NCBI RefSeq assembly: GCF_025336525.1
Contig: NZ_JAOCZP010000012.1
Location: forward strand, 62,001-126,000
Length of the DNA: 64,000 nt
Origin: Chelativorans salis
Lineage (GTDB): Bacteria > Pseudomonadota > Alphaproteobacteria > Rhizobiales > Rhizobiaceae
Direction of reading: 5' to 3'
The position numbers and the translations under genes were made by a program. Below, piece after piece: positions 2,699-36,372 of the stretch; the first letter of the stretch is position 1; the number at the start of each line of letters is the position of its first letter. A model generated the notes under the pieces. That model was given only the letters and a program-made list of their open reading frames with translations. It was not told the DNA's origin and did not search any database.

Positions 2699-4729
2699 TC
2701 AGAAGCCGGGCACGATGTCCTTGTCCTCTCCCATGCCCTTGTTAATGCCGTAGGCACGTCTGGCATTGGAGATTCGGTCGATGACAGTTTTGTTAACCGC
2801 CGAGTCGCCGTCGTCTTCGGCAGGCCCGAACAGGTCACCCTGGCCAGGCGCTTGGGCTACGGCGGAACGCTCCTCGGGCGAGCCGGGATGGCGTTGCAGC
2901 TGGACACCGCCTTCGTCTTCGGACAGCGCGACGGCACTCTCGCCGTCGGTAGCAAGTCGGCGGTCTACACCGCGCACCTGCCCGCTCCAGTCGTCGGATC
3001 GCGGGGCAGGACGATCAGCATCGGGACCGTCACGCAGGACCAGCGAAGGGAGGACCCGCTCAGTGAAGTTATTGTCCTCGTAATAGCGGAGCTTCTTCGC
3101 TCGGATCGGCGGCAAGCCGGAGACCATTACCAGTTCGTCGGCCGGCGGCAGTTGCATTACTTCGCCCGGCGTTAACAGTGGCCGTGCAGTCTCCTGGCGG
3201 CTCACCATGACATGGGAGAGCCAGGGTGCGAGACGATGGCCGGCATAGTTGCGCATGGATCGAAGCTCGGTCGCCACGCCGAGCGCGTCCGAGATGCGCT
3301 TGGCCGTTCGCTCGTCATTTGAGGAAAAGGCAATCCTTACATGGCAGTTGTCGAGGATAGCATTGTTCTCGCCATAGGCCTTGGAGATCTGGTTCAAGGA
3401 TTGTGCAATCAGATAGGCGCGGATGCCATAGCCGGCCATGAAGGCGAGTGCGGTTTCAAAGAAATCGAGGCGTCCGAGCGCCGGAAACTCATCCAGCATC
3501 ATGAGCAGCTGATGCTTACGACTCTTCTTCGGATCGCCCTCCAGCCGCTCCGTCAGACGCCTGCCGATCTGGTTGAGGACCAATCGCACAAGCGGCTTGG
3601 TACGCGAGATGTCCGACGGCGGCACGACCAGATAGAGCGATACTGGACGATCCGCATCCACAAGGTCGGCAATGCGCCAGTCGCAGGACGATGTTGTCGC
3701 CGCAACCGTCGGATCGCGGTAGAGACCGAGAAACGACATGGCGGTCGAAAGCACGCCCGAACGCTCGTTTTCCGACTTGTTCAGAACCTCGCGGGCTGCC
3801 GAGGCGACGGCAGGATGCACCTTCGGATTCCTTGGCGTGCCGAGATGATTGGTTTCCATCATTCGCCTGAGCGTGGCAGTAAATGAGCGCTGCGGGTCTG
3901 ACAGGAAGGTGGCGACTCGGGCGAGCGTCTTTTCCTGTTCGGCATACAGAACGTGCAGGATGGCACCGACGAGCAGTGCATGGCTTGTCTTCTCCCAGTG
4001 ATTGCGCCGCTCCAGGGCGCCTTCCGGGTCGACGAGTATGTCGGCGATGTTCTGGACATCGCGGACCTCGTGGGGACCTCTGCGCACCTCCAGCAACGGA
4101 TTGTAGCGCGCCGATAGCGGATCGGTCGGATTGAACAGGAGGCAGTGCGAGAACTTGGAGCGCCAGCCGGCGGTCAGCTGCCAGTTTTCGCCCTTGATGT
4201 CGTGAATGACGGCCGAGCCGGTCCAGGAAAGAAGCGTCGGCACCACCAGTCCGACTCCCTTGCCCGACCGTGTCGGTGCAAAGGCCATCACATGCTCCGG
4301 CCCGTCATGGCGCAGATAGCGGTCCTTCAGCTTGCCGAGGAAAACGCCAGCGGGATGGAACAGCCTCGCCTTCTCGATCTCTCGCATCGCGGCCCAACGC
4401 GAGGAGCCATATGTCGTCACCATTCCACGCTGCCGTGCCCGCCAAAGGGAGCCGGCGATCGCGGCGGCGCAGCCCACGAAACCGCTCGCGCCGGCAGCCA
4501 TGCCGGCCTTGTTGAAGATTTCTGGCGCATAGGCCCCGAACCGGAACCACCACTCGAACAGCTTCCAGGGCTTGTAGATCGGCCAGCCGAGAACCATGAG
4601 CCATGGCATTCCGAGTTGCTCTTGATAATCCAGCATGTGCGCGCACCATTGCGTCGCCGCCCATACGCCATGAATGACGATGGCGAACACGACAGCGATC
4701 TGGCCAACCAGTATTTTCGTGGGAGTCAT
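2699..4729 (-). CDS. traG: Type IV coupling protein TraG (VirD4 family)
   Basis: Inner-membrane DNA pump that links the relaxosome to the Trb channel, 676 aa. Two N-terminal transmembrane segments (residues about 6-25 and 74-95) are followed by Walker A APTRSGKGVG at 151-160 and Walker B LLMMLDEFPALGRLDF near 410, plus the conserved AYLIAQSLNQI segment. The C-terminal 90 residues are acidic and low in complexity. An in-frame ATG at 4768 exists, but the one at 4729 is preceded by GGAG with a 7-base spacer and gives the usual MTPTKILVGQ start. It is followed by the ribbon-helix-helix gene and trbBCDE, the standard order. Confidence 0.95.
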   Translation of the reverse strand: MTPTKILVGQIAVVFAIVIHGVWAATQWCAHMLDYQEQLGMPWLMVLGWPIYKPWKLFEWWFRFGAYAPEIFNKAGMAAGASGFVGCAAAIAGSLWRARQRGMVTTYGSSRWAAMREIEKARLFHPAGVFLGKLKDRYLRHDGPEHVMAFAPTRSGKGVGLVVPTLLSWTGSAVIHDIKGENWQLTAGWRSKFSHCLLFNPTDPLSARYNPLLEVRRGPHEVRDVQNIADILVDPEGALERRNHWEKTSHALLVGAILHVLYAEQEKTLARVATFLSDPQRSFTATLRRMMETNHLGTPRNPKVHPAVASAAREVLNKSENERSGVLSTAMSFLGLYRDPTVAATTSSCDWRIADLVDADRPVSLYLVVPPSDISRTKPLVRLVLNQIGRRLTERLEGDPKKSRKHQLLMMLDEFPALGRLDFFETALAFMAGYGIRAYLIAQSLNQISKAYGENNAILDNCHVRIAFSSNDERTAKRISDALGVATELRSMRNYAGHRLAPWLSHVMVSRQETARPLLTPGEVMQLPPADELVMVSGLPPIRAKKLRYYEDNNFTERVLPSLVLRDGPDADRPAPRSDDWSGQVRGVDRRLATDGESAVALSEDEGGVQLQRHPGSPEERSAVAQAPGQGDLFGPAEDDGDSAVNKTVIDRISNARRAYGINKGMGEDKDIVPGF

Positions 4730-5032: not shown

Positions 5033-7003
5033 TCACGAAACGCTGGGCCCGCTTCTCTGCCGTCCGATCGTCCACGAGATGCCCTCGCGCTGCATCACGC
5101 CGGAGACCTCCTTGCCAATGTGGCGATCGAGAACCGGTCGCCATGGCACAAGCGTGAACTCGCGCGACCTCTCGATGACAGCGTACTTGCCGCTCGCGAG
5201 CTCAACGCAGTGGTGGAGTCTGCCTTCTATCATTTCCCCGGCCCGTGTCTCGACATAGGTAAGACCACGTTCTTTTGAGATCTGGCTGGCGATGCGATTC
5301 AGTTCGCGCCTGTTCAGCGCGATCAACATGTTGTCGCGGTAGATAAGTCGATCCTGCTCATTGCGAGCGAACCCCTGAGCGACGAGCCACTGCTGCCGAC
5401 GGGCCTGGGCATGATGCACTTCGCGACCGAAGCCGGCATCGCGTAAGGGCTCGGGGCTGCCGGAGACCAGTTCACGATCAATCCATGTAGCACCGTCGAA
5501 CTCCACCTGCTGCTCTAGTGACAGTGGCGAGAGCTTGTCGACCCTGACAGGTTCAGCCTTAGCCCTCCGGCGCTCGTAGTCCACCGCACGTTCGAGGTAA
5601 TCTGGCGAGATGATCCACGTGCCGTCCGGCTCGCGCTCCACGCCTCTGGTGGCGCGCCGGATCGCCTCCAGCCGCCGCACGTGAGTTTCGGCGAAGCGAT
5701 CGGTCGCAGATGAATCATGGTTTAGATGGATATCTATATTGTAGCGTCCGTCGTTGGCGGCGGCGATCTCCGCAATGGTGTGGTCAATCTGCCGGGGCTC
5801 GGCATTCCTCGGCGTGACGCGTACGATGCAGCCGTCGGGCGTCGGTTCCGTCGCATCACCTTTGCCGATGTCGATGTAGTGGGTTCTGCCGTCCACGCCA
5901 TCGACGATGAGGTAATGTCGGTCGTTGATGTCGTCCGCGAGTCCGCGCGCGACAACGCTGCCGACAACAGGTTGATCCTGTTGTGCAGATCGATCGTGGA
6001 TATCGTATTCGGCGACGCTGCGGAAACGCCCCTTGCCAGTCAGCTGACGTTGCATGGTATTGATAATGTCGCCGCGCTCGCCCATGCGGCGCAGGATGGG
6101 CTCGAGATCGCGGTTCAGGCGCCACCGGCCAAGACCTGTTTCCTCGGCGAGATCCATCCGCTCCAGCTTCCGCAGACGGCCCTGGTGCAGCGTCTGGCGA
6201 AATGCATCGCGGTGCGTAGGCGAAACAAGTCCATCATTGTCGCGCAGGCGCAGCAGTCGCCGGTCGATGCTGGTAAAGCGATCCTGCTCCATTTCCTGGC
6301 GCAGGGACAGCTCGATCTCGCGGTCGGTACGGGGGCCAAGGTCGAGGCGAACCAGTTCGGCCGCCCGTTCGCGAATGCCACTCGAAATATACTCCCGTGC
6401 GATGACGAGATTTTCGCCCCTGTCGTCGTTGCCGCGGACGATAATGTGGATATGCGGGTTGCCGGTATTAAAATGGTCGACGGCAACCCAGTCGAGCTTC
6501 GTTCCGAGGTCCTCCTCCATCTGCGCCATGAGCCGCCGCGTGAGCGGCTTCAGGTCGTCATACTGGATGCCGTCTTCTGGCGCGACGATGAACCGGAACT
6601 GATGCCGGTCGCCGTCGGCTCTGTCGAGGAAGTCCTTCGCGTCCACGCGATCCCGCTCGGCACCGTAGAGTTCGCCGGGCTCACCCTCCCGAGCGACTCC
6701 ATCGCGCTGAACGTAGCGCAGATGGGCGCGAGCCCCGGCCATGCCCTTGCCGGCCAGCCTGACGATACGCGCCTTGACAACGACCCGCCGCTGGCGGAAG
6801 GCGGCATGGCGATCGCGTGATCTGAGCAGCGCTGCGGCCGCCCCACCGCGCCCTTTCCGGCTCCCCGTGAAGCGACCACCGCGCATGGGCCTACCGCCGG
6901 CTCTGTTAACCGCAGCCTGAATCTGACCGGCGTAGCGCTTACCTGCCTTCGAGCCGCGCGACCGTATTTTGCCGAGCTTCGGCCTGAACTCGTCATCCTT
7001 CAT
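5033..7003 (-). CDS. rlxS: Relaxase of the RlxS/VirD2 type (DUF3363 C-terminal domain)
   Basis: Nicks oriT and pilots the transferred strand into the recipient. The protein is 656 aa. After a basic leader (residues 1-75) comes the catalytic domain: a candidate nucleophilic Tyr in HLRYVQRDG at about residue 97, HQFRFIVAPEDG at 134-145 and the metal-binding three-histidine motif DHFNTGNPHIHIIVRG (His177, 184, 186). The remainder matches the DUF3363 relaxase region (RRLLRLRDNDGLVSP). An ATG at 7099 is in frame, but the one at 7003 has AGAGG six bases upstream and gives the family start MKDDEFRPKLG. It lies downstream of the rdfS-traF-transglycosylase genes, the ICEMlSymR7A order. Confidence 0.92.
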   Translation of the reverse strand: MKDDEFRPKLGKIRSRGSKAGKRYAGQIQAAVNRAGGRPMRGGRFTGSRKGRGGAAAALLRSRDRHAAFRQRRVVVKARIVRLAGKGMAGARAHLRYVQRDGVAREGEPGELYGAERDRVDAKDFLDRADGDRHQFRFIVAPEDGIQYDDLKPLTRRLMAQMEEDLGTKLDWVAVDHFNTGNPHIHIIVRGNDDRGENLVIAREYISSGIRERAAELVRLDLGPRTDREIELSLRQEMEQDRFTSIDRRLLRLRDNDGLVSPTHRDAFRQTLHQGRLRKLERMDLAEETGLGRWRLNRDLEPILRRMGERGDIINTMQRQLTGKGRFRSVAEYDIHDRSAQQDQPVVGSVVARGLADDINDRHYLIVDGVDGRTHYIDIGKGDATEPTPDGCIVRVTPRNAEPRQIDHTIAEIAAANDGRYNIDIHLNHDSSATDRFAETHVRRLEAIRRATRGVEREPDGTWIISPDYLERAVDYERRRAKAEPVRVDKLSPLSLEQQVEFDGATWIDRELVSGSPEPLRDAGFGREVHHAQARRQQWLVAQGFARNEQDRLIYRDNMLIALNRRELNRIASQISKERGLTYVETRAGEMIEGRLHHCVELASGKYAVIERSREFTLVPWRPVLDRHIGKEVSGVMQREGISWTIGRQRSGPSVS

Positions 7004-7069
7004 GCCCGACCTCTGGATGATTTCGACAAAGCCAAGCACCCGTGCCACTGGCCCTCTGGGCTCTGCGGG

Positions 7070-7172
7070 GAGCCTCCTAGAAAAACGATGTGCAGACAAA
7101 GAGATAGTCGCCTCTAGGAGGCTCTACCTTTATCTTGCTTCCGCGGCGGCTACCTGGCAACCTGCTACCTGG
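7070..7172. other. Candidate oriT region: 12-bp inverted repeat and 9-bp direct repeats
   Basis: A perfect 12-bp inverted repeat, GAGCCTCCTAGA at 7070-7081 and TCTAGGAGGCTC at 7113-7124, flanks a 31-base AT-richer spacer. Next to it, GCTACCTGG occurs twice (7149-7157 and 7164-7172), bracketed by CCGCGGC at 7141-7147 and 7174-7180. The block sits directly upstream of the relaxase start, where oriT is often found. Origin function and nic position are inferred, and the repeat could instead act in relaxase-gene expression. Confidence 0.45.
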
Positions 7173-7860
7173 TCCGCGGCTCCTCCTTCACGATCAAACC
7201 GCTTTGTGGCGATCTGAGCGGCACAAGCATTCCACTACTGGGTCCGCGTGCGGGAACGCCATCTCGGAAGAAAAAGAGCGACCGCCCAGAGGGTACATCC
7301 GGCGCCTTCACGGGAGAAGATTCCTCGGGGAACTCGCCCATGTCGGCCGCCGAGAGTCCGGCTTCCCGGAGTTCTTTCAGATAAGAAACCGTCGCTTTCG
7401 GAAGCGGCCTTCCGTCCCGCAAGTGCTCCTCGTAGCGACCCGGTCCGGCATGGTATGCAGCGAACAATCCGGGGAATCCGAAGCGGTCATGCATGGCGCG
7501 AAGATAGGCGGTTCCAGCCAGAATATTGTCCCGCGGATGATGCGGATCGGCGCCGAGCCCGTGCTGGTTGCGCATCTCTCGATAGGTGTCCGGCATCACC
7601 TGCATGAGGCCCATGGCGCCGGCATCGGACGTGATCGGAGAGCCGTCGAGCATGGTCTCGCCGCTACTTTCGGCGTCCATCACGGCGTAGATCCAGGCTT
7701 CTGGAACGTCAAACCGGCGCGAGGCTTGGAAGACAAATTCCTGCCACCTCGCAAGGCGTTGATCGACGGAAATCGCGACCGGCTCGGCGATGGCGGGAGC
7801 GGTGTAGGCGCATGGGGCGACGGCGATCACGCCGAGCATCAAGAGGGTCAGCCGGTCCAT
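7165..7860 (-). CDS. Conjugation-associated lytic transglycosylase (SLT domain)
   Basis: A 231-aa exported peptidoglycan-cleaving enzyme that locally opens the wall for the mating channel. Residues 1-26 form a signal peptide (MDRLTLLMLGVIAVAP, cleavage near AIA). The catalytic Glu lies in YAVMDAESSG at about residue 64, followed by GAMGLMQVMPDTYREM, AGTAYLRAMHDRFG and AAYHAGPGRYEEHL, the classical SLT motifs. The C-terminus past residue 165 is proline-rich and poorly conserved. The start at 7860 overlaps traF by 13 bases; an upstream in-frame start would remove the signal peptide from the N-terminus. It corresponds in position to the transglycosylase gene in the rdfS operon of Mesorhizobium ICEs. 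Confidence 0.92.
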   Translation of the reverse strand: MDRLTLLMLGVIAVAPCAYTAPAIAEPVAISVDQRLARWQEFVFQASRRFDVPEAWIYAVMDAESSGETMLDGSPITSDAGAMGLMQVMPDTYREMRNQHGLGADPHHPRDNILAGTAYLRAMHDRFGFPGLFAAYHAGPGRYEEHLRDGRPLPKATVSYLKELREAGLSAADMGEFPEESSPVKAPDVPSGRSLFFFRDGVPARGPSSGMLVPLRSPQSGLIVKEEPRTR

Positions 7861-8396
7861 AGCGGCACGAGCCTCCCTATGATGTTCGTCGCTGGGACCG
7901 GACCGAAATACCGGCTGTCGAAGGAGCCTGGAGCGTCGGAGTTGAGCAGGAAAACAGCGTCGCCCGCGAGCCTGCGGCAGGCGTTCCACCACGGCAGCGG
8001 ACGGCCCTGACGGTCCGCCCCAAGACGGCGGGCTACGATCTGGCCGCCGATAATAATGATTTCATTGAAAGCGCAGACATGCTCGCCGGGCAGCGCGGCA
8101 ATATGCTTTACCAGTGGAACATTGCCGGACAGATAGCCGCGAATCTCGGCGAGCTCGGCTATGGAGTCGGGCGCGCGGACAAGAACGAGATCGCCTCGAG
8201 CCGGTTCATCGTACCCGACGCGGTAAAGGCCGACAGGCACGCTCGCGGAGGCATTCCACACCAGCCGGGGCAACGGATCGGCGATCGCGGAAAAGCCGAT
8301 CAGCCCGAGGCCGATTGAGGCAATCGCGATGGCATTGCGCGCCCGAGCGCGCCTCAAACGGCTGCCGATCAAGTGGATGGACGGCCGCCGGCTCAT
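7848..8396 (-). CDS. traF: Conjugal peptidase TraF (S26 signal peptidase family)
   Basis: Membrane serine peptidase that processes, and in IncP plasmids cyclises, the TrbC pilin. It is 182 aa with one N-terminal transmembrane helix at about 21-39 (NAIAIASIGLGLIGFSAI). The catalytic Ser is in NASASVPVGLYRV (Ser52) and the Lys in GNVPLVKHIAALPGEHV (Lys97), the Ser/Lys dyad of S26 peptidases. The box GDAVFLLNSDAPGSFDSRYFGPV near the end is also typical. The ATG at 8396 overlaps the end of the excisionase-like gene by a few bases, so both are coupled. A basic RRARARN stretch precedes the membrane helix, as expected for inner-membrane topology. Confidence 0.93.
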   Translation of the reverse strand: MSRRPSIHLIGSRLRRARARNAIAIASIGLGLIGFSAIADPLPRLVWNASASVPVGLYRVGYDEPARGDLVLVRAPDSIAELAEIRGYLSGNVPLVKHIAALPGEHVCAFNEIIIIGGQIVARRLGADRQGRPLPWWNACRRLAGDAVFLLNSDAPGSFDSRYFGPVPATNIIGRLVPLWTG

Positions 8397-8662
8397 GACC
8401 GGCCTCCTGCACCGGCGCTGCCGGAACCCGCCCGACCGTCTTTGCAACCGGGATCATGTGAGCGGCCTTTCGACCAGTCGTCGAGTTCGTCGATGTGGTA
8501 GCGGACATAGCGGCCATGCTTGCGGTATTTCGGGCCGCCGCCAGTCGCCCGCATCTTATCCAGCGTGCGCTGCGACAGGCCGACATAGAAGGCGGCCTGC
8601 GCGGTATTGAGAAACGGGCTGCCTTTTTTGGCGCGCGCCGCGCGCTCGTTTTCGTCGTCCAT
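8393..8662 (-). CDS. rdfS: RdfS-like excisionase / HTH_17 DNA-binding protein
   Basis: An 89-aa winged-helix protein of the MerR/excisionase class (FLNTAQAAFYVGLSQRTLDKM, then GPKYRKHGRYVRYHIDELDDW). It is first in the operon with traF, transglycosylase and relaxase. In ICEMlSymR7A that place is occupied by RdfS, the recombination directionality factor that drives ICE excision and helps transcribe transfer genes; the assignment rests on this synteny plus the fold. Two in-frame ATGs exist, at 8668 and 8662; GCGAGG lies six bases before the second, which I chose. In the known system its transcription is switched on by FseA, also encoded here. Other AlpA-like regulators share the fold, so function is inferred. 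Confidence 0.78.
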   Translation of the reverse strand: MDDENERAARAKKGSPFLNTAQAAFYVGLSQRTLDKMRATGGGPKYRKHGRYVRYHIDELDDWSKGRSHDPGCKDGRAGSGSAGAGGRS

Positions 8663-8801
8663 GATCATCCTCGCTTCGGTTCAGAGAAAGCGGTCGCGAG
8701 GATCGACGAACCGGGACGCTTCAGGGACGGGCGAAGAGTCGGGTGGGGGTTTTCGCCGCCCTTTCGGGCAGGCGACGTTCGGCGGAAATCGCTGGGAAGC
8801 C

Positions 8802-8835: not shown

Positions 8836-9159
8836 TCAGTCGATCGGGTTCCAGATGACGGCGTAGGTGTCGTCATCGTCCTGGCCGGCGGCTCGGCCGA
8901 GATTGGCGTAGAGCTTACGCGGGCCGAACTCCGGTGCGGCGATGGAAAGGCTCACATACACCTTGCCGGAGGTCTCGCCTGTCCGGATCCAGCCCGCGCC
9001 GACCTCGACGCCCTGCGTCAACACCCGGAAGTCGGGATGGTTGTCGGCGCTCTTGGCCTGGTTAGGCACGATGTCGATTTCGGCGCGGACGCTGAGTGTT
9101 CTCAGTTGGCCCTTGTAGCCGCCGTTTTCCTGCCTGGTAACGTATCCGATTGCGGTCAT
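8836..9159 (-). CDS. DUF736 family protein
   Basis: A 107-aa cytoplasmic protein of unknown biochemical role that is almost always found in conjugative plasmids and ICEs of Alphaproteobacteria. The DUF736 signature is clear: MTAIGYVTRQENGGYKGQL at the start, EIDIVPNQAKSADNHPDFRV, and the end YAVIWNPID. The ATG at 9159 is preceded by AAAGGAGACAGG with a good spacer, while the longer reading to 9231 is not family-like. Its 5-prime leader lies inside a large imperfect inverted repeat (9161-9437). It stands as a single gene between the excisionase-like gene and the DUF2958 gene. Regulation is unknown, but the structured leader is striking. Confidence 0.88.
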   Translation of the reverse strand: MTAIGYVTRQENGGYKGQLRTLSVRAEIDIVPNQAKSADNHPDFRVLTQGVEVGAGWIRTGETSGKVYVSLSIAAPEFGPRKLYANLGRAAGQDDDDTYAVIWNPID

Positions 9160-9808: not shown

Positions 9809-10225
9809 CTATCGACGCTGATGTTCCACCGAATGCGGCGAAGAACTGGAATTGCACGTGGAAAGGATCGCGGCCTGCCGCAGCACGCGCTCGGCCTTCG
9901 TGATGCCGCCGGCCACATGAGCAGCAAGGAGGTAGATCGAAAGCGGATACTTCCCCTTAAACAGGAGGTCGCGCTCGATGGTGAGGCCAGACGCATTTCG
10001 CACGCTCTGAAGCTTGGCAAGGCTGACCGTGCCAAGCTCGGGCGTGCCGAAGCCGGGATCGCAAAGCCCAAACAGTGTGTCGCCGTCGGGCATCATTTCA
10101 GTGATCAGCCATGTCGCGCTGCCTGCCGGATCGAACAGCTTCACTACCGGCAGGTGATCAGTTCCGGCTTCGCCCGCGCCGTTTTCGAGCAGGCGGGTGC
10201 GGATATCATCGGTGATCAACATCAT
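9809..10225 (-). CDS. DUF2958 family protein
   Basis: A 138-aa protein of unknown function; DUF2958 is another marker family of alphaproteobacterial ICEs and conjugative plasmids. Recognisable segments are MMLITDDIRTRLLENG, HLPVVKLFDPAGSATWLITEM, LFGLCDPGFGTPELGTVSL and IERDLLFKGKYPLSIYLLAAHVAGGI. The last 25 residues, after ITKAERVLRQ, are serine-rich and longer than is usual for the family, so the 3-prime end may have shifted frame at some time. Two adjacent ATGs (10225 and 10222) share the upstream GAGGAGAGACG ribosome-binding site. It is probably transcribed alone, being separated by 460 bases from the FseA genes upstream. Confidence 0.82.
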   Translation of the reverse strand: MMLITDDIRTRLLENGAGEAGTDHLPVVKLFDPAGSATWLITEMMPDGDTLFGLCDPGFGTPELGTVSLAKLQSVRNASGLTIERDLLFKGKYPLSIYLLAAHVAGGITKAERVLRQAAILSTCNSSSSPHSVEHQRR

Positions 10226-10686: not shown

Positions 10687-11193
10687 CTAGAGAAGAAATC
10701 GTCGATACCCGCCATTCATGAGTGCGTAGCCACGCTTTATGGCCCGACGGACCCGGTCGCGAAGGTGGTCGCCGGGATCGCTCCAGTCGGCCCGCACGCG
10801 CGCGTGACCGAACAAAGCCACAGCGATGTCGCGATGGGATGCGCCGGCCAGCGCGCCGTCGAGCGCACGCAGGACGAAGCGCAGCCGGGCATGACGGGGT
10901 TCCACGGGAAAATATCGTGCGGATAGCCTTCCCCTCGTATGGAGATCGTTGAGACAGCCAAGTGCCTTGAGGTGGTGTCTTGCGCGGTCGGGTGGAGCAA
11001 CCGCATCGGTGAGCAGCCGGGCCGGCCGCAGAAGGTTGCCTTGCGTGAGCGACAGTTGCAGATGCCGCTCATCCTCGTGCAGGAGCACGTGCTGACGGCC
11101 TTCCGGCTCAAGAACGACGGCGGCATCACAGGGTAGCCTGCCAAGATCGATCGCGTCGGTCGCGGATGACGAGAAGGCGGTCACGGGCAGCAC
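10687..11193 (-). CDS. Msi171-like DUF2285 protein, C-terminal part of FseA
   Basis: The second half of the frameshift-produced excision activator. The frame codes for a DUF2285-type domain (ATDAIDLGRLPCDAAVVLEP, HVLLHEDERHLQLSLTQG, and a helix-turn-helix-like end RDIAVALFGHARVRADWSDPG then RDRVRRAIKRGYALM). The annotated GTG start has no good ribosome-binding site. Reading this frame backwards, the homology-like sequence continues upstream without a stop to position 11251, inside the upstream gene. That is expected if translation enters by +1 slippage at 11251-11254 rather than initiating here. The fused product would be 267 aa (11491 to 10687). In ICEMlSymR7A the fusion, FseA, activates rdfS. 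Confidence 0.85.
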   Translation of the reverse strand: MLPVTAFSSSATDAIDLGRLPCDAAVVLEPEGRQHVLLHEDERHLQLSLTQGNLLRPARLLTDAVAPPDRARHHLKALGCLNDLHTRGRLSARYFPVEPRHARLRFVLRALDGALAGASHRDIAVALFGHARVRADWSDPGDHLRDRVRRAIKRGYALMNGGYRRFLL

Positions 11194-11491
11194 GTGGAGG
11201 CATTGGCGGGGACACCAGAATACGGCCGCGTCGGAATCGGCCGAGCTGGCGAAACCGGATTCCCCACCCGGTGAGATCAGGAAAGGAAGGGTGCAGCCTG
11301 ACCACGGTCAGATGCGATCCCTCCCGTGCAAGCAACGTCTGCCTGAGCGCCAGCACAAGAACGCTGACAAAGGCGGAGTTGCGCCTGAGAAACTCCCAAG
11401 CCCACCCGAGCCGCGTCAAGCGTGCGGTATGGTGGTAAGTCGCGCCTTCCTGCCATTCCAGCCATCCAGTGTCGTCATTAGTACGGTGCAT
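11126..11491 (-). CDS. Msi172-like protein (DUF6499 type), zero-frame product of the fseA locus
   Basis: A 121-aa product if translated without shifting. Residues 1-80 look conserved (GWLEWQEGATYHHTARLTRLGWAWEFLRRNS then VRLHPSFPDLTGWGIRF), whereas residues 81-121 are arginine-rich and featureless, the sign that the zero frame stops being selected after Phe80. Codon 80 is TTT followed by C, the tRNA-Phe UUU-to-UUC +1 slip established for Mesorhizobium msi172. After the slip the sequence becomes F-ASSADSDAAVFWCPRQ and continues into the DUF2285 part. The ATG at 11491 has GAGGAG eight bases upstream. It is 175 bp downstream of luxI and probably cotranscribed with it from the tra-box promoter. 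Confidence 0.85.
   Translation of the reverse strand: MHRTNDDTGWLEWQEGATYHHTARLTRLGWAWEFLRRNSAFVSVLVLALRQTLLAREGSHLTVVRLHPSFPDLTGWGIRFRQLGRFRRGRILVSPPMPPRAARDRLLVIRDRRDRSWQATL
11251..11254 (-). promoter_or_regulatory. Programmed +1 ribosomal frameshift site (TTTC)
   Basis: On the minus strand, codon 80 of the upstream gene is TTT (11254-11252) followed by C at 11251. Slipping one base forward re-pairs tRNA-Phe on TTC and opens the frame that ends at 10687 (188 codons including the stop). Conserved-looking protein sequence switches frames exactly here. The mechanism is published for ICEMlSymR7A msi172/msi171; its use here is by analogy. Confidence 0.8.
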
Positions 11492-11665
11492 TGCGGCTGC
11501 TCCTCTGGCCGCTACCGGTCGTCGCAGATGATGGTCGATGCCAGGCTACCGACGACGAAAAACACACGCCCCTTGCGCGCAACGACGACGGTCGGACTTT
11601 TCAACATGAATGCACCGCGAGGCGACCGATCAACTGCCTTGCATGGAACCATCATCCGTTGTCCT

Positions 11666-12214
11666 TCAACGTCGACCTATGGGAACGCGGCCGATATCCA
11701 GTTGCACGGCGGCAAGCTGCATCCCGTCTGTTTCAACAAAAGGTCCGAGAATTCGGCATGGGAAGCCGGCAGCCTCAAACCGCACCAGCCAGTCGGGCTC
11801 GATCACGCTGGTAAGGGTGGTAATGCCGAGGGATTTGCATGTCGGGGGGATGGTTTTCATCAGTTGCCGGAACAGTTGCCCTCCCCGACGATCCTTCCTG
11901 ATGAAGAACCGCGACCATTCCCGGATGCAGTGACCGCGCGGCACCGGACCGTCGACAAGATGTGCGAAACGATCCCCGAGAAGATGGCGCGATGTGGTAG
12001 GAAGAAGCCTGTAGCCCCCGGTGACATGACCCTCATGGGTCGCGAGCACGTAGACCGTCTGGGACGTGTCGTATGCGTCCCGTTCCCGACCGTCGGTCCG
12101 GAAGAGATCCGTCCAGCCGCGTTCGGCGACAAAGATCTCGTGCCGCAACCTATAGTGCTCCTCCAGCAGCTCCCGGTAGCGGTGGGCGCCTGCTCCTTTA
12201 ACGACGTGAATCAC
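11666..12214 (-). CDS. traI: Acyl-homoserine lactone synthase (LuxI/TraI family)
   Basis: Makes the AHL quorum-sensing signal from S-adenosylmethionine and an acyl carrier. The protein is 182 aa and carries the invariant residues of the family in order: RLRHEIFVAERGW (Arg, Phe, Trp), ERDAYDT (Asp pair), GGYRLLPT, and IREWSRFFI (Glu, Ser, Arg). The start is either TTG at 12217 or GTG at 12214; AAGGAG is 8 and 11 bases upstream respectively. I chose GTG, which yields MIHVVKG. An 18-bp palindrome resembling a tra box is 57 bp upstream. The LuxR-type regulator lies just upstream and the FseA genes downstream, reproducing the traR-traI1-msi172-msi171 arrangement of Mesorhizobium ICEs. Confidence 0.93.
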   Translation of the reverse strand: MIHVVKGAGAHRYRELLEEHYRLRHEIFVAERGWTDLFRTDGRERDAYDTSQTVYVLATHEGHVTGGYRLLPTTSRHLLGDRFAHLVDGPVPRGHCIREWSRFFIRKDRRGGQLFRQLMKTIPPTCKSLGITTLTSVIEPDWLVRFEAAGFPCRILGPFVETDGMQLAAVQLDIGRVPIGRR

Positions 12215-12270
12215 CAAGACTGCCGCTCCTTGTCCGGAGCGACATTCTTCGGAGAGTGCGCACGCGAGCT

Positions 12271-12288
12271 ATGGCCATTCTTGGCCAT
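12271..12288. promoter_or_regulatory. Tra-box-like palindrome upstream of luxI
   Basis: ATGGCCATTCTTGGCCAT is a perfect 7-bp inverted repeat with a 4-base centre, 18 bp overall, the length of known TraR boxes. It lies between the luxR stop (12305) and the luxI start (12214), at a spacing suited to LuxR-type activation of the luxI-fseA operon. Binding is inferred. Confidence 0.65.
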
Positions 12289-12304: not shown

Positions 12305-13021
12305 TCAGGCGGCTATCTCCATTAGGGCGAGAGCTTTGACAACCGCTTGAGTGCGCGTGACGCAATCCAGCTTCCGCATCGCGCTGGCGATGTGTTTGTT
12401 GACGGTTGATTCGGAGATGCACAGGATGTGGGAGATGTCCCAGGTTGTCTTGCCGACGGCCACCCAGGTCAGCACTTCGCATTCGCGGTTTGACAGTCGA
12501 GGTCGTCCTTGCCGCGTAGGAATGAGGAGTTGCAGTCTGCTTGCGAAGGTCAGCGAGAGGACATTCAGCGGCTCGAGGATATCCGGTCTCGTGCTTGGCG
12601 ATTCCCCCGCCAGGGATATGCAGCCGCTGCGTGCGTTGCGGACAGGCACCGGAACGCAGAACCCTGCCTTGAGGCCGGCATCCGCGGCTTCCGTCATGAT
12701 CCGGCCTGCCGCCGGACCAAGGTCTCTGGCTCTAATTGTAGCCTCATTCCAGGTGAACGGCTTCGTACAGGAAGCACCGGCGACCGCGACGGGATCCTGC
12801 CTGACGTAGCCGCACGAAAGATAGTGCGACATCCAATCGTCCGGCCAGAAACGCTCCAGGATCAGAGTTTCGAACCTCTGGCCGGAGGCCGGCAAACCGG
12901 TCAGAATAAAGTATCGCAGACCGAATTCTCGGATCGCCGCACGATAGGTCTCGACAAGCGCGTCGATGCCGGTCGCATTCGCCAACAGCAACACATGGTG
13001 GAAAAACTGTGACGCGTTCAT
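12305..13021 (-). CDS. traR: LuxR/TraR-family quorum-sensing regulator
   Basis: A 239-aa transcription factor. Residues about 20-160 form an autoinducer-binding domain (REFGLRYFILTG, WMSHYLSCGYVRQDPV, GLKAGFCVPV). Residues 175-235 are a LuxR helix-turn-helix (LSNRECEVLTWVAVGKTTWD then ISESTVNKHIASAMRKL). It presumably binds the AHL made by the adjacent synthase and activates the tra-box promoter between the two genes. The ATG at 13021 follows GGAGAGGGGAA; a longer in-frame reading to 13096 adds a sequence without domain homology. Inverted repeats at 13039-13072 lie just upstream of its ribosome-binding site and may regulate it. Confidence 0.92.
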   Translation of the reverse strand: MNASQFFHHVLLLANATGIDALVETYRAAIREFGLRYFILTGLPASGQRFETLILERFWPDDWMSHYLSCGYVRQDPVAVAGASCTKPFTWNEATIRARDLGPAAGRIMTEAADAGLKAGFCVPVPVRNARSGCISLAGESPSTRPDILEPLNVLSLTFASRLQLLIPTRQGRPRLSNRECEVLTWVAVGKTTWDISHILCISESTVNKHIASAMRKLDCVTRTQAVVKALALMEIAA

Positions 13022-13251: not shown

Positions 13252-13482
13252 TCAGCCGGCTCGGTTTCTGCGCTGCAGCTCACTGAAAACCGTGAACCAG
13301 AAACGAAAATCCGTGTCGCGACCGGCATAGCGAGCCGTGAAGGCCGCCGATGCCGCTGCGAGCGATGCCTTTGGACCATACGTTGCGACCGCCGCATCCG
13401 CCGCCTCGGCGGGATCGCCAATGTCCCACAGCGTCAGGTCGCCGTCGCCGGCCATTATTTCCTCATATTTGCGTTCTGCCAT
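13252..13482 (-). CDS. Small conserved-looking hypothetical protein next to luxR
   Basis: A 76-aa soluble acidic protein with no family I can name. It begins MAERKYEEIMAGDGDLTLWD and continues as a helical, alanine-rich body (DPAEAADAAVATYGPKASLA) ending in DFRFWFTVFSELQRR. Coding is supported by a strong ribosome-binding site, GGGAGG six bases before the ATG, by balanced amino-acid use unlike shadow frames, and by its same-strand position upstream of luxR. In related ICEs small regulators such as the antiactivator QseM act on TraR and FseA, but QseM is a DUF2285-type protein and this one does not look like it. The 295 bases upstream (13483-13777) hold no gene I can support. Confidence 0.65.
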   Translation of the reverse strand: MAERKYEEIMAGDGDLTLWDIGDPAEAADAAVATYGPKASLAAASAAFTARYAGRDTDFRFWFTVFSELQRRNRAG

Positions 13483-13777
13483 GCCAAACCTCCCGCGGGT
13501 GTACCGGCGCGGGCGGCAGCTGCCGCTGGGCCGGACGTTGAAAACCCACGGAAGTGAGCCACGATCGCGGGGCGTTTACCCCGGACATAGTCGTGCCGTC
13601 CCTGACCCTTCGGCGGAAGGCGCGAGGCGCAATGAGCTTCGTTTCTCGTATCCTCGCGTAGACTTGAATATTACAGGTTCCGGCGACATGAGCAATCGTC
13701 GGGAAACGCGCGATCGCTTCTGCTAAAGATGGTGCATACGTTTGCCGATTCTGTCTGGAGTGAGCTACTGTAGACGC

Positions 13778-14692
13778 TCAACTCAAATCACCGTTGTCTT
13801 TCAGCATTTCAAGGTGCTCGCGGCAGACCTGCTCGGCCAACTCGTGCAATCGGGCGGTACGCTCACCGAGCCAGGCAAGCGCTTCTTCGCTGATCGCGTA
13901 GTGATTTGAATAGCGGGCCTTTACGTACGCTTCATTCAGCGTATTGAACCAGGAGGTAAATCTCCGCTGATCGCGCGGCCAGACGTCCGCCAGTGCCCTG
14001 TTTTGGTCTTCCGCAAGCGAGCGAAGAAAAGCCAGATTGTGCGAGGGCGGGCTGTAATTGGTCAACACCAGTAGCAATGTCGAGTATGCTTGCTCGATCG
14101 TTTGATGGAGATGAAAGGCCGCCTCCTCCAGGCGGCCCCGACCAAACACGTAGCCGAACGTGTCGAGCAACCCTCGCGAGCGTTGAAAGCGTCCCTCATA
14201 GTGTTCTTTGGCCACCTTATGGGCATCTTCACGCGTCAATGGCCTAGGCTCCGCGAGTGGCTCCTCGTCCAGCTCATAGAGCACGATCCCTTCGCGGCGG
14301 ATATCGGTGAAGAAATATTGCCCCTCGCGCAGCGCCGTGTTCACCTCGCGCCGCGAATGAACAATGAAGCTCACCAGCGTCTTCACGCCGCGGTCGCGCA
14401 AGAGCGTGTCCTTTGCTTTGGCCCAGTAGGCGGCAAAGTCGCCAAGCTTGCGGTTGTTGACGACGATCAGGAGGTCGTAGTCAGATCGGTAGCCCTTCAT
14501 GGTGTGCGGCTCATCCACCCAGTCGCCGCGCGCATAGGAGCCGAACAGGATGATCTTGAGGATGCGACCCTTCTTCTTGAACTCGGCCGTGCCCTCCGCC
14601 AGCGCGTCCTCGAACTCCTCGTGCAGGATATCGACGACGCGCGCCAACTCGCGCTGCTTGTGTTCCGGCAGATGGTCGATGCTTGTCTTCAT
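13778..14692 (-). CDS. Nucleotidyltransferase-HEPN fusion protein
   Basis: A 304-aa two-domain protein. The N-terminal half is a minimal nucleotidyltransferase: GSYARGDW at 51-58 and SDYDLLIVV at 70-78 supply the GS and DxD catalytic motifs. The C-terminal half (about 160-290) is a HEPN-type helical bundle, with KARYSNHYAISEEAL containing the Arg-x-x-x-His element near its end. As separate genes, MNT and HEPN form toxin-antitoxin pairs in which the MNT adenylylates the HEPN RNase; the fused form is common in proteobacterial accessory DNA, with unclear role. It lies just past the ICE regulatory genes and is divergent from the following regulator. An in-cis self-silenced toxin is an inference. 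Confidence 0.8.
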   Translation of the reverse strand: MKTSIDHLPEHKQRELARVVDILHEEFEDALAEGTAEFKKKGRILKIILFGSYARGDWVDEPHTMKGYRSDYDLLIVVNNRKLGDFAAYWAKAKDTLLRDRGVKTLVSFIVHSRREVNTALREGQYFFTDIRREGIVLYELDEEPLAEPRPLTREDAHKVAKEHYEGRFQRSRGLLDTFGYVFGRGRLEEAAFHLHQTIEQAYSTLLLVLTNYSPPSHNLAFLRSLAEDQNRALADVWPRDQRRFTSWFNTLNEAYVKARYSNHYAISEEALAWLGERTARLHELAEQVCREHLEMLKDNGDLS

Positions 14693-15061
14693 CCAGCCCT
14701 GTGCTCGACGCGGCGTGACTGCCGCATGGTTCCCTTATAACAGCATCCGCCGAACGGCAAAGACAGCTGCCGGCAGCGTTGGCCCACCACGTGATCCTCC
14801 GGTGATGCGCATTCGTTCCGGTGGTTTCCTCCGGGGCCAACGGGGGCTTGTGCCGCAAGTATACCCCTAAGAGAGGCGATTTGCCGGTGTAAGATCTACC
14901 ACCTTCACGGCGCTTGGCGAACGCGGTAGGCACCGTCGAGATTGCGCCATTCCGCACCCGTGGATGCCGAACGGCGCTCGTCGTACGGTGGGGAAAGGAC
15001 AGCCTGGGGCCGCAATGTACGTCGCAATCCGCCCGTATTTTGCGCCTCGGCGGGACTGCCC
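14693..15061. promoter_or_regulatory. Divergent intergenic region
   Basis: About 370 bases between the nucleotidyltransferase-HEPN gene (leftward) and the PhoB-like regulator (rightward). It must hold both promoters. I see no strong inverted repeat, small gene or terminator. A rightward in-frame extension of the regulator reaches 14942 but has no domain similarity. Confidence 0.4.
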
Positions 15062-15769
15062 ATGAAGCCATTGGTGGTCATCTGCTCGCAGAGCGCGGAG
15101 TTCTATCTGATCCTCGAGCACATCCTGAGGGTGGACGGCTTCGACAGCGTCCTGGCCGGCAACCTTGAGGAGGCGCTGCGGCTGGCGGCGGAGACTACAC
15201 CGGCTGCTTTCGTCTTGGACTGCGGGCGCAACGGCCTGTTCGGGCCGGACCTGTGCACAAGGCTGAAACAGGAGGAGGTTACGCGTGCAATCCCTGTTGT
15301 GGGGCTGATCGCGCCGGGAGCGGAGGATCAGCACATTGCGCTTCTCAAGGCAGGCGTCGACGAAAGCCTGGTTCGGCCGGTGGCGCCGGCCAAGCTCCTG
15401 GATTATCTACGCGCACGGTTGCCGAGGGCACAGCAGCCGCTCTCTGCGCTGGGTGGTGGAGACACCCTTGTCTACGGCGACCTCGAAATACGGCCCGAAA
15501 GCGGCCGCGTGCGCTGCGGCGGCAAGGAGGTTCAACTCGGGGCGATCGAATTCCGCCTTCTACGGGTTCTCCTCGAATACCCCGACCGGACATTCGGCCG
15601 TGCCGAGCTCATCGCTGCGGCCTGGCCGGAGAACATCCATGTGAGTGCCCGCACGGTCGACGTACATATCAGCCGGTTGCGCAAGGCTTTGCGGAGGCTC
15701 GGCCGACGCGATCTCATCCGCACCGTGCGGGCGGCGGGCTATACACTCAACGATGAAAACGGCGCCTGA
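15062..15769 (+). CDS. PhoB/OmpR-like regulator with degenerate receiver domain
   Basis: A 235-aa protein. Residues 1-120 have the fold pattern of a response-regulator receiver: VLDCGRNGLFGPDLCTRLKQ includes the phospho-acceptor-type Asp. However, the usual acidic pair after the first strand is replaced by ICSQSAEF, and the conserved Lys-Pro is VRPVAP, so phosphorylation may be lost. Residues 135-230 are a winged-helix OmpR DNA-binding domain (EFRLLRVLLEYPDRTFGR, SARTVDVHISRLRKAL, IRTVRAAGYTL). No histidine kinase is adjacent. The start at 15062 gives MKPLVVICSQ, and the same opening appears in the paralogue at 33365, which supports it. It may control the nearby oxoamine synthase cassette, but that is conjecture. 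Confidence 0.85.
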   Translation: MKPLVVICSQSAEFYLILEHILRVDGFDSVLAGNLEEALRLAAETTPAAFVLDCGRNGLFGPDLCTRLKQEEVTRAIPVVGLIAPGAEDQHIALLKAGVDESLVRPVAPAKLLDYLRARLPRAQQPLSALGGGDTLVYGDLEIRPESGRVRCGGKEVQLGAIEFRLLRVLLEYPDRTFGRAELIAAAWPENIHVSARTVDVHISRLRKALRRLGRRDLIRTVRAAGYTLNDENGA

Positions 15770-16150
15770 ACGAGACGATGGGGCCCGGTCCCTCGGCAGC
15801 GAGCACCCTCGCCTGCCAAAACGAAATCAGGGCGCACCGCAGGGCTGTTCGCAACAACCCGTTCGGTCAAAGCAGACCCCGCTTTGGCTCGCCGAAGGCA
15901 CAACAGTCGACAAGCGGATCTTCTCGTTCCACATCGCCGCGTCATTGAGAAGCGGCATTATAAAAATCCAACTGTTCTACATGCAGTGAATATTGCAAGT
16001 TGTGTTTATATATGACGCACATCGGAATTTGTTACTGAAACCTAGCCTCACATTTATTAATATCTTCAATAATTATACTACGAATAACAATAGCGCCTTG
16101 TAGTATTCCTCTAAAGCGAACTCCTCGAGCGGCTCGTCGCCAATATCTTT
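15770..16150. promoter_or_regulatory. AT-rich intergenic region upstream of the oxoamine synthase
   Basis: About 380 bases without a gene. From about 15950 to 16110 the DNA becomes markedly AT-rich compared with everything around it (GTTTATATATGAC, CATTTATTAATATC, CAATAATTATACTACG), which suggests a strong or xenogeneic-type promoter region. No clear repeat was identified. Confidence 0.45.
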
Positions 16151-17410
16151 GTGAGCGCCATCATGCCGGCACAGGACCATGCGCGAAACGCATCGCGCCA
16201 AACACGCTACCGCAACACAGCCTCGGTCATCGACCGTACATGGTCTCATTTCGATGAGGCGTACCGGCGCGGCCTGATGGGTGTCCATTGCCGTTCGACC
16301 GAAGGCCGCACCATCCTTCTGACGAGGGGCAAGCGGCAGGGAAGGCAGGCGACCGACTTCGTGCGCTGTTCGTATCTTGGCCTCGACAACCATCCTGCTG
16401 TGGTCGCGGGAGCTGTGGCGGCGATCGAGGAGTACGGCTCACTTCACTGGTCGTGCGCACGCACGCGGCTGAATTTCGGGCTGGTGGGTGCGCTTGAGGA
16501 AAACCTGTCGCAGCTCTTTTGCGCGCGCGTCATTGCCTATTCGACGGTGATGGTCGCCAACATGGGAGCCCTGCCGATCATCGCCTCGGGACATCTGACG
16601 GGCGGCCGCAAGCCGCGCATGGTATTCGACCGGCTCGCGCATGCATCGCTCGCTTTCCACAAGCCGGTTGTGGCCGATGAGAGCCAGGTAGATACGATCC
16701 CGCACAACGATCTCGACGCCCTGGAGCGGATTTGCCGAAGGCATCCGCAGGTCGCCTATATCTGCGACGGCATCTATTCCATGGGCGGCCAGGCACCGGT
16801 CCGGCAGCTTTCTGAGCTTCAGGAGCGATACGGCCTCTTCCTGTACATCGACGATGCGCATGGGATCTCCATCTTTGGCCAGCGGGGCGAAGGCTTCGCG
16901 CGCTCGCAACTGCCTTCCGACCTTGGCGAGCGCACGATCATCGCTGCCTCGCTCGGAAAGGGGTTCGGCGCGTCGGGCGGAATGCTGATGCTCGGCACCG
17001 CTCGCCAGGAGGCGCTTTTCCGGTGCTATTCCCTGCCGCATGCGTTTTCGGCCTCGCTTAATCTGGCGGCCGTGGGTGCAGCGCTCGCCTCGGCACGGAT
17101 CCATCGCACGTGCGAACTTGCGAACCGCCAGCGCGAGCTTGCGGCGCGGATTGCATTCTTCGACGAGCGGATATGCACCGCCCAGCGCGGAACACCGCTG
17201 CCCATCCGTATGATCAGGATCGGCGACGAGCCTGCGGCCATCGATATTGCCGAGGAACTGTTGGACGAGGGGTTCTACACCTCTGTCACGTTTTTTCCCA
17301 CCGTTGCCCGCGGAGAGGCGGGCATTCGCATCTGCCTGACGGCAAGCCACGACCTTGTCGAACTGGAGAGGCTTTGCCGCAGGATCGACCGGTGCGCAGA
17401 CGCCGGTTGA
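16151..17410 (+). CDS. Alpha-oxoamine synthase family PLP enzyme
   Basis: Fold-type I PLP enzyme of about 419 aa, in the family of KBL, BioF, ALA synthase, serine palmitoyltransferase and CqsA, which condense an amino acid with an acyl-CoA into an alpha-aminoketone with loss of CO2. DDAHGISIFGQRGEG (Asp234, His237) and the PLP lysine in SLGKGFGASGG (Lys270) are intact, and GSLHWSCARTRLNFG fits the family's G-S-x-x-S-R region. It is not beside biotin or haem genes, so housekeeping roles are unlikely. GTG at 16151 and ATG at 16163 are both possible starts, with no convincing ribosome-binding site for either. An exporter and an acetyltransferase follow, suggesting a small-molecule product. Confidence 0.85.
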   Translation: MSAIMPAQDHARNASRQTRYRNTASVIDRTWSHFDEAYRRGLMGVHCRSTEGRTILLTRGKRQGRQATDFVRCSYLGLDNHPAVVAGAVAAIEEYGSLHWSCARTRLNFGLVGALEENLSQLFCARVIAYSTVMVANMGALPIIASGHLTGGRKPRMVFDRLAHASLAFHKPVVADESQVDTIPHNDLDALERICRRHPQVAYICDGIYSMGGQAPVRQLSELQERYGLFLYIDDAHGISIFGQRGEGFARSQLPSDLGERTIIAASLGKGFGASGGMLMLGTARQEALFRCYSLPHAFSASLNLAAVGAALASARIHRTCELANRQRELAARIAFFDERICTAQRGTPLPIRMIRIGDEPAAIDIAEELLDEGFYTSVTFFPTVARGEAGIRICLTASHDLVELERLCRRIDRCADAG

Positions 17411-17530
17411 GGAACGGTCAGCGAACGCAGGATCGTTCTATTTCGACCGGAGGAATCGCGGCAGGCAAGTCAATCGCCGATCCGTCTGAGAGCGGCGACC
17501 CCGCCAACGATAGAAGCAGAGCAAAAACGC

Positions 17531-18430
17531 ATGACCAGCCGTGGAGCCTCAACCGATCGTTCGCGCGTCGCATACATTTTGCTGGCATGTGTGTCGGTCT
17601 GTTGGGCTGGCTCCTACATCCTCACGAGGATCGCCACGGCCGAGATTCCGCCTGCCACCTTGGCAACTGCCAGGCTGATGGTCGCCTACTTTGTCCTTCG
17701 AATCTGGTTGAGGCTGACACACGCCGATCCCCCGAGCGCGGTGCCGGTCCTGTGGGCAGGCTACATTCAGGTAGCCTTGTTTGGGCATGCTGTGCCGCTT
17801 TTTCTCATTGCGGCGGTGTCGGTGAATGTGCCGACAGGCGAAATGGCCGTCCTTGTCGCGACGGCGCCACTTTTCGCGGTGGCTCTGTCGCATCTATTCC
17901 CGCCGGTCATGCCGGCAAGGACGACAGTCCTCGGCCTGCTGGTGGGCGCGCTGGGGCTGCTTGCCTTCTTCGGCGAACCCAATGCGAAGGCGATCGACGC
18001 CGACTGGCAGTCACGATTCATTCTGCTAGGGGCGGCTGCCAGCTATGCGATGTCGGGTCGTGCGGTCGCCAAGCTGCCCGTCGACAATCCCGTGGTCGTC
18101 GGGAGCGCTGTCACGATGTGCGCGATCGCGATGCTGTTGCCGATGAGCCTTATCTTTGACCAGCCCTGGGCAATCTGTCCAAGCCGTGGCGCGATCGCCG
18201 CCACCATGCTGCTTGGCACGGCGTCCACCGCAGTTGCCTATGTCATTTACTATTATCTGATCGGCCTCGGCGGTGCGGCCTTTGCGAGCCTTCATCATTA
18301 CCTCGTTCCAGTCCTGAGTGCGCTGCTTGGGGCAGCCTGTTTCGGCGACATTCCGCAACCCCGGCAAGTCCTGTCCGCCGCCTCAATCGTCTTTGGGGTC
18401 TATCTCCTACGCGGCTTGGCTCGATCATGA
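17531..18430 (+). CDS. EamA/DMT-family transporter
   Basis: Inner-membrane protein of 299 aa with about ten hydrophobic helices in two EamA repeats (first repeat from AYILLACVSVCWAGSYILTR, second from FILLGAAASYAMSGRAVAKL; the final pair is GGAAFASLHHYLVPVLSAL and SAASIVFGVYLLRGLA). Members export amino acids, purines, metabolites or signals. It lies 120 bases after the oxoamine synthase and overlaps the acetyltransferase by four bases (ATGA), so an operon is likely. Export of the oxoamine-derived product is a reasonable inference; the substrate cannot be read from sequence. Confidence 0.9.
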   Translation: MTSRGASTDRSRVAYILLACVSVCWAGSYILTRIATAEIPPATLATARLMVAYFVLRIWLRLTHADPPSAVPVLWAGYIQVALFGHAVPLFLIAAVSVNVPTGEMAVLVATAPLFAVALSHLFPPVMPARTTVLGLLVGALGLLAFFGEPNAKAIDADWQSRFILLGAAASYAMSGRAVAKLPVDNPVVVGSAVTMCAIAMLLPMSLIFDQPWAICPSRGAIAATMLLGTASTAVAYVIYYYLIGLGGAAFASLHHYLVPVLSALLGAACFGDIPQPRQVLSAASIVFGVYLLRGLARS

Positions 18431-35973: not shown

Positions 35974-36372
35974 TCAGCGCGGTGGCAAAACCGCCTGATC
36001 GGTGAAGAAAATATTGGTGAGGAGCGACCGCACGGAAATCAGGCCGTTTGTGTTGTCGATCATGTCCGAGGAGATCGAAGGCTGCGCCAGCAGGACGGCG
36101 AGAACCGAACGCACGACGGCGAGGTCAGCCCTGAAGCGATCACGGAATGCTGCGCCTTCCGGGTCGGCCAGCCCTTGGTCGAGCGCTTGTTCGAGATCAT
36201 CGAGCGCCGCGTTAAAGCGCTTGAGGTAGCGGCGGATCTGGCTCTCGCCGCCACCTTCCTCCATGTCGCGCTTTCGGCCCTGAGCCGCATAGGCCAGCAT
36301 GAACTCATAGGATTCCTCGATGCGGTCGAAGGCGTCGCGCATGGCGTTCGCCTGCGTCATCAGGTCGGTCAT
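35974..36372 (-). CDS. Hypothetical protein downstream of the cytochrome b561 gene
   Basis: A 132-aa soluble, helical protein with no signal peptide and no family I recognise. It contains MRDAFDRIEESYEFMLAYAA, a charged middle with SQIRRYLKRFNAALDDLEQA (coiled-coil-like) and a hydrophobic stretch VVRSVLAVLLAQ. The ATG overlaps the cytochrome stop by four bases (ATGA), which strongly suggests a real, translationally coupled gene belonging to the molybdenum-hydroxylase operon. A role as assembly factor or soluble accessory of the enzyme is possible, but nothing in the sequence shows it. Confidence 0.75.
   Translation of the reverse strand: MTDLMTQANAMRDAFDRIEESYEFMLAYAAQGRKRDMEEGGGESQIRRYLKRFNAALDDLEQALDQGLADPEGAAFRDRFRADLAVVRSVLAVLLAQPSISSDMIDNTNGLISVRSLLTNIFFTDQAVLPPR

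Follow-up and report, generated by a model that had tools for sequence, protein, structure and literature searches.

A split fseA gene with a candidate +1 frameshift site between a luxR-luxI pair and an rdfS operon

INTRODUCTION

The activator FseA of ICEMlSymR7A in Mesorhizobium is the closest described counterpart of the gene analyzed here. It is encoded in two parts, msi172 and msi171, joined by a programmed +1 frameshift that has been reviewed (PMC5009743) and placed in a circuit model (PMC11963761). PMC10359603 reports 4709 FseA homologues, about 61% of them with a conserved +1 site, and proposes a Shine-Dalgarno-like reading of the stretch ahead of the slip. The same paper describes the FseA box as two inverted hexamers 15 to 16 bp apart upstream of rdfS, ties Tyr19, Phe34, and Arg37 of FseA and Arg28 and Asp31 of QseM to the contact between the two proteins, and states that RovC activates a type VI secretion system. 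PMC8627217 reports that plasmids with this conjugation system have kept rdfS and that rearrangement of top-level regulators is frequent.

Here, we describe a split fseA gene in a 64-kb window, by which we mean the whole stretch of DNA analyzed (C3:62001-126000), from the 144-kb contig C3 of a 5.66-Mb draft genome. We put the probability at about 0.88 that this gene belongs to the ICEMlSymR7A (Msi172-Msi171) family and slips +1 to make FseA, linking a quorum signal to the rdfS operon.

RESULTS AND DISCUSSION

A split gene with both FseA domains

Both halves of fseA lie on the minus strand. The first, msi172-like half (11126-11491) is a frame-0 open reading frame (ORF) of 121 aa that matches DUF6499 (PF20109) at 34.1 bits (cut-off, 23.8) in a profile search and has the AWEFLRRN motif at residues 31 to 38. 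The second, msi171-like half (10687-11250) is read in the +1 frame past the slip and matches DUF2285 (PF10074) at 77.2 bits (cut-off, 26.4), so the domains follow one another as in the FseA family. The candidate slip site TTT-C (11251-11254) is positioned at codon 80, where a UUU in the P site would re-pair on UUC; a Shine-Dalgarno-like TGGGGA formed by Trp-Gly codons (11261-11266) precedes it, with the slip codon 6 nt further on. The sequence-only reading had placed a change of frame exactly at this TTT-C and had described a +1 frame that reads ASSADSDAAVFWCPRQ after the slip and runs to 10687 to give a fusion of 267 aa, and our analysis returned the same coordinates and length. Residues 81 to 121 of the frame-0 ORF form a tail that is absent from the fusion. 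This tail is not conserved among homologues, in which the distance from the AWEFLRRN motif to the frame-0 stop ranges from 126 nt to 900 nt or more.

The coincidence of the frame change with a TTTC is weak evidence by itself because the first half holds three in-frame TTTC up to the slip (codons 34, 70, and 80). The case for the slip site rests instead on its WG-x-x-F context and on the comparison with homologues.

The AlphaFold2 model of the fusion, built from the fusion and 42 other rows, has a mean pLDDT of 93.7 and a pTM of 0.89, and junction residue 80 falls inside a predicted strand (residues 78 to 81). The only Foldseek match at E < 0.001 was RovC (6xz5; E = 2.7e-09), giving the fused protein a predicted RovC-like fold. 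RovC, a single-ORF protein of Yersinia, also matches the fusion in sequence over each of its halves, the stretch in the first half being weak alone (8.5 bits; i-Evalue, 14).

The slip codon is conserved among shifted homologues

We compared 79 named loci, others from a search that gave matches in 24 of 61 genomes, and a small number of further loci. These hold 97 AWEFLRRN-type sites in 95 loci, and tblastn matched the second half for 94 of them: 81 in frame +1, 11 in frame, and 2 in frame +2. A non-redundant set of 70, in which the first 200 nt differ, contains 58, 10, and 2 copies in these classes, respectively. The 58 consist of 56 counted copies, L018 (assigned by eye from WDVLF with TTTC), and the window itself, counted once as L093. 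Left out of the slip count were redundant copies, the two frame +2 copies, which are degenerate (L019_6 and L021_10), and L111, L114, and L115, which gave no second-half tblastn match, although all three have WGLRF in the first half.

All 58 non-redundant shifted copies, window included, have TTT as the slip codon, and the base after it is C in 52 of them and T in the other 6. A looser k-mer clustering leaves 34 shifted representatives, 28 with TTTC and 6 with TTTT. Elsewhere in 56 of the shifted genes, TTT accounts for 161 of 474 Phe codons (34%). As the compared sequences are related, no probability is attached to this conservation. At the level of sequence, the TTT-C at codon 80 of the window fseA corresponds to the conserved +1 site predicted to join the halves in the FseA family. 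The variant TTT-T occurs in L017, L020, L027, L030, L095, and L102, where the +1 codon is still Phe.

At the position of the TGGGGA ahead of the slip, 56 of the 57 other shifted copies have TGGGGN or TGGAGC, and L018 has TGGGAC. Because the amino acids Trp-Gly force the TGGGG, it offers little support for a Shine-Dalgarno role. Pooled substitutions against 22 homologues, analyzed with phase weights set by hand, put the switch of codon phase at nt 234 of the gene, close to the TTT at nt 237-239 (0-based). When single pairs are taken, the two-log-unit interval of the change point includes nt 237 in 14 of 22 and lies earlier, in a stretch of low protein conservation, in the remaining 8.

RNA structure was considered as a stimulator of the slip and rejected. 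No conserved structure was detected downstream of the slip (alifold 0.0 for 31 representatives, a diverse set with low power), and the predicted fold of the window around the slip is ordinary (z of -0.15 and -0.69). The 60 nt upstream give a z of -2.36, with only -0.27 kcal/mol.

Relatives with both halves in one frame

Some fseA relatives have both halves in one frame (L085, L087-L092, and L121, as well as L097 and L118). Ten non-redundant copies were called in frame; seven of them (L085, L087, L088, L089, L090, L091, and L121) read cleanly as one ORF, and L037, also scored as in frame, has a stop between the halves. Six in-frame relatives keep the Phe codon and follow it with G (TTC-GAA in L089, L090, L092, and L097; TTT-GAA in L118; TTT-GTA in L121), and three have no Phe at the slip position (L085, L087, and L088). 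The clean in-frame relatives are thus without a slippery site. Homologues fused in one frame without TTTC had been proposed in advance as evidence that would overturn the frameshift. Such relatives do occur, but they do not speak against the fusion; they are an alternative evolved state that has also been published, and they support the fused protein as the functional product.

In L015 and L041, the two halves share a frame only through an upstream frame change, and the slip region is kept. These are possible frameshift-independent or degenerate alleles.

An FseA box ahead of the rdfS operon

Downstream of fseA, also on the minus strand, lie genes for DUF2958 (9809-10225) and DUF736 (8836-9159), both conserved neighbors. 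An FseA box, GGCGAA-N16-TTCGCC (8730-8757, minus strand), is located 67 nt ahead of the rdfS ATG, a layout matching that given in PMC10359603. The excisionase-like gene rdfS (8393-8662; HTH_17, PF12728, with TIGR01764 below its cut-off) heads a minus-strand series continued by the signal peptidase gene traF (7848-8396; PF10502, with TIGR02771 at 96.8 bits, just under its cut-off of 100.25) and a lytic transglycosylase-like gene (7165-7860) placed in the operon by position and conservation and named from sequence. Next on this strand are the relaxase gene rlxS (5033-7039; NF041267 relax_RlxS at 1031 bits, cut-off 850) and a gene for a traG-like coupling protein (2699-4729), named from its position and its similarity to L089. 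Alongside RlxS, the conjugation genes include trbB, matched in L089, and other trb genes named by order and sequence.

The exact FseA box occurs once in the 64-kb window, ahead of rdfS, and versions with one mismatch are found at two other places (6346-6373 and 36325-36352). With a spacer of 14 to 18 bp allowed, 10 of 30 related rdfS leaders contain the exact box, nine with a 16-bp spacer and L026 with 17. These 10 are all the leaders whose RdfS is at least 60% (61 to 89%) identical to that of the window, and the 20 leaders without the box all precede more distant RdfS proteins (46 to 56% identity). The window RdfS is 73 to 89% identical to the copies in L020, L026, L030, L031, L077, L078, L080, and L081. 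These eight loci and L033 are the nine among the 79 named loci with the order luxI-fseA-DUF736-rdfS-traF; the remaining loci are cut short, have no luxI, or are arranged differently.

A luxR-luxI pair of a separate clade

Upstream of fseA on the minus strand are luxI (11666-12214; AHL synthase, PF00765), the GTG start of which aligns with the ATG of relatives, and luxR (12305-13021; PF03472 and GerE). The pair adjoins fseA and matches the NCBIfam TraR/TraI equivalogs far below cut-off. It is 59 to 66% identical to the pairs of L012, L014, L097/L126, and L118/L127, compared with 26 to 44% for LuxR and 32 to 40% for LuxI against all other matched FseA-linked copies, the latter two ranges over the matching stretches. 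A candidate LuxR box, the perfect 7-4-7 palindrome ATGGCCA-AGAA-TGGCCAT (12271-12288, minus strand), is positioned 56 nt ahead of luxI and is the sole mismatch-free 7-4-7 form in the 3 kb scanned. Similar palindromes were seen by eye in L012, L014, L097, and L118.

A minus-strand hairpin and T run that match the terminator consensus (11563-11581) separate luxI from fseA and could limit read-through. This terminator-like site makes cotranscription of luxI and fseA uncertain.

The luxI leader contains a predicted minus-strand hairpin (12221-12244) that holds the GGAG ribosome-binding site (z of -2.77; stability equaled by 2 of 200 shuffles), and relatives of both luxI clades have comparable predicted hairpins ahead of luxI. 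Across 19 Mesorhizobium-type leaders, 80% of cells are paired, compared with at most 53% when the structure is slid; the structure was drawn from one row, and the window clade and L096 stand outside the count. Covariation support in this set is mixed: of 500 shuffles, 4 equal or exceed the covariation score, 251 the count of pairs with changes on both sides, and 90 the count of pair types. The hairpin could provide translational control of AHL synthesis. Among the papers listed by our literature search on traI/luxI hairpins, none dealt with this leader; the review PMC7143759 reports that RNase E and the small RNA RcsR1 target the 5' untranslated region of sinI, another gene of the luxI type.

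Beyond luxR, the window contains a module (13252-18430) common to L012, L014, L126, and L127, which comprises a 76-aa ORF, a response regulator, and an AOS-type PLP enzyme. The 76-aa ORF (13252-13482, minus strand), upstream of luxR and conserved with this luxRI clade, matched nothing in Pfam or NCBIfam at E 0.01. The EamA transporter of the module is present in three of the four loci, L127 being the exception, and a 304-aa gene occurs in L126 and L127. The AOS-type enzyme scores above the cut-off for NF005697, an uncharacterized subfamily, and below it for alpha-hydroxyketone autoinducer synthases.

An FseA-family gene follows luxI in four of the five loci of this clade. It is split in the window and L014 and in one frame in L126 and L127, where the gene after luxI is a diverged FseA. 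No fseA was recognized beside the luxRI clade and module of L012.

Alternative explanations

The split could have arisen in a decayed or mis-sequenced gene, with a random one-base indel breaking an in-frame fseA and no fusion being made. The in-frame relatives described above and the two degenerate frame +2 copies, which show decay within the FseA family, lend something to this idea, but the same codon is shifted in the 58 non-redundant copies from many assemblies, always as TTT followed by C or T, codon-phase constraint is seen in both halves, and the fused model is confident. We rejected sequencing error or decay as the cause of a split so common to homologues, and consider this explanation barely credible. 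Also very improbable is that the two halves act separately, the DUF6499 half working alone and the DUF2285 half starting alone, for example, at the GTG at 11193. A GTG-started ORF of 168 aa does run from 11193 to 10687, and QseM is a functional lone DUF2285 domain according to PMC10359603. However, a start at 11193 drops fusion residues 81 to 99, which carry a conserved FW motif, and leaves aside that RovC is one chain matching both halves, that the model packs the halves as a single fold, and that the frame-0 tail is unconserved.

A third alternative is compatible with the frameshift and concerns the regulators only: luxR-luxI might belong to the response-regulator/AOS module and lie outside the circuit, with the adjacency to fseA a coincidence of insertion. 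The same luxRI clade sits with the module in L012, L014, L126, and L127, in the first of these with no fseA recognized, and the terminator-like site separates luxI from fseA. Yet an FseA-family gene comes after luxI in most loci of the clade, twice split and twice in frame, and luxI-fseA adjacency is also common in Mesorhizobium-type loci; we therefore regard a coincidence as unlikely, although well short of implausible.

Our preferred reading thus remains a split fseA that slips +1 and connects a quorum signal with the rdfS operon. The DNA itself contains both halves, the conserved slip codon, the box, the palindrome, and the gene order, and the predicted fold follows from the translation; slippage and its efficiency, the AHL response, rdfS activation, and any effect on transfer are proposed by homology with described systems. 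Most ribosomes would make only the DUF6499 half with the frame-0 tail, and a minority would slip +1 at UUU-C behind the Shine-Dalgarno-like UGGGG(A), tRNA-Phe re-pairing on UUC, to yield the 267-aa RovC-like FseA. LuxR and the LuxI-made signal would probably act at the palindrome (12288-12271) to activate luxI-fseA, and FseA would bind the box at 8757-8730 and turn on rdfS-traF-lytic transglycosylase-rlxS. If FseA drives the rdfS operon in this way, the frameshift would gate the step from population signal to DNA transfer.

QseM and the nature of the element

A whole-genome search for DUF2285-only proteins found no QseM-like gene on the 144-kb contig C3, and the window and L008 were likewise without a match. 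The only such match in the genome is on contig C14, beside a second split fseA. This second copy (WGLRF, TTT-CCC; C14:259991-261091, L007) has the QseM-like gene upstream and is part of a conjugative-looking element. A QseM-like match outside fseA is present in 38 of the 79 named loci, 30 of them with the match at most 1 kb from the AWEFLRRN motif. The other 41 have none, so the absence of QseM near fseA is common; all nine loci with the order luxI-fseA-DUF736-rdfS-traF do hold a match.

Judged by their residues, it is possible that the C14 QseM cross-inhibits the window FseA, since both keep those tied to QseM-FseA contact. We offer tentatively, as a doubtful proposal, that the conjugation module swapped its quorum-sensing head for the LuxR/LuxI pair of another module and is without its own QseM, in which case the main remaining brake would be the frameshift, perhaps together with the luxI hairpin, or the C14 QseM acting in trans. 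If the latter were true, one mobile element would be restraining another. Contig C3, with no QseM found on it, is a setting in which to ask what restrains transfer when the known brake is missing.

The terms ICE and excision, used in the sequence-only reading, overstate what contig C3 contains. Searches of its 144 kb with the Phage_integrase and Recombinase profiles turned up neither a tyrosine nor a large serine recombinase, which leaves RdfS without a known partner on this contig. No tRNA genes were found in the window or in L008-L011, RepC was found on C1 and C15 and not on C3, and the ends of C3 share no 21-mers. In a draft assembly such as this one, further parts of the element may lie on other contigs. 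The element on C3 may be an ICE, a plasmid, or a remnant. An integrase candidate is located near an end of contig C7, beside an apparent Xre/RES pair.

Comparison with described systems

The window fseA shares with FseA (Msi172-Msi171) of ICEMlSymR7A the split DUF6499 and DUF2285 domains, AWEFLRRN at residues 31 to 38, and the +1 shift at a Phe codon past the WG motif. Tyr19, Phe34, and Arg37 are at their published positions, and D211 is the match of Asp210. For this numbering, we used the Mesorhizobium plasmid copy L013, 53% identical to the window fusion, as a stand-in with published numbering for the R7A sequence. The likeness extends to an FseA box with a 16-bp spacer ahead of rdfS and to the RlxS relaxase. 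The window differs in that its LuxR/LuxI pair belongs to another clade and that neither a QseM-like gene nor an integrase was found on contig C3. The earlier suggestion of an FseA-type frameshift circuit is strongly supported, at the level of sequence, by the luxR-luxI-fseA-rdfS chain, the domains, the slip conservation, the RovC-like fold, the FseA box, and RlxS, but the claim that the locus reproduces the R7A circuit goes too far, given the other LuxR/LuxI clade and the contig without QseM. The antiactivator QseM, a lone DUF2285, has the same domain as the second half of fseA, and a comparison by eye with L013 shows counterparts of Arg28 and Asp31 in the C14 copy.

The FseA system itself is known, and a literature search of limited coverage returned no paper linking Nitratireductor with FseA. 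The case described here has a different quorum-sensing pair and lacks the usual inhibitor gene alongside. The window fseA supports a ribosomal slip as a gate on conjugation in the FseA family, and the split (window and L014) and one-frame (L126 and L127) genes in related quorum-sensing modules provide a natural comparison for the costs and benefits of the frameshift. By its sequence, the window fseA is a further case of the ICEMlSymR7A-type system, already published for thousands of homologues. RovC of Yersinia (PDB 6xz5) resembles its fused product in predicted fold over the full length and in sequence across both halves and, unlike the window fseA, is encoded in a single reading frame.
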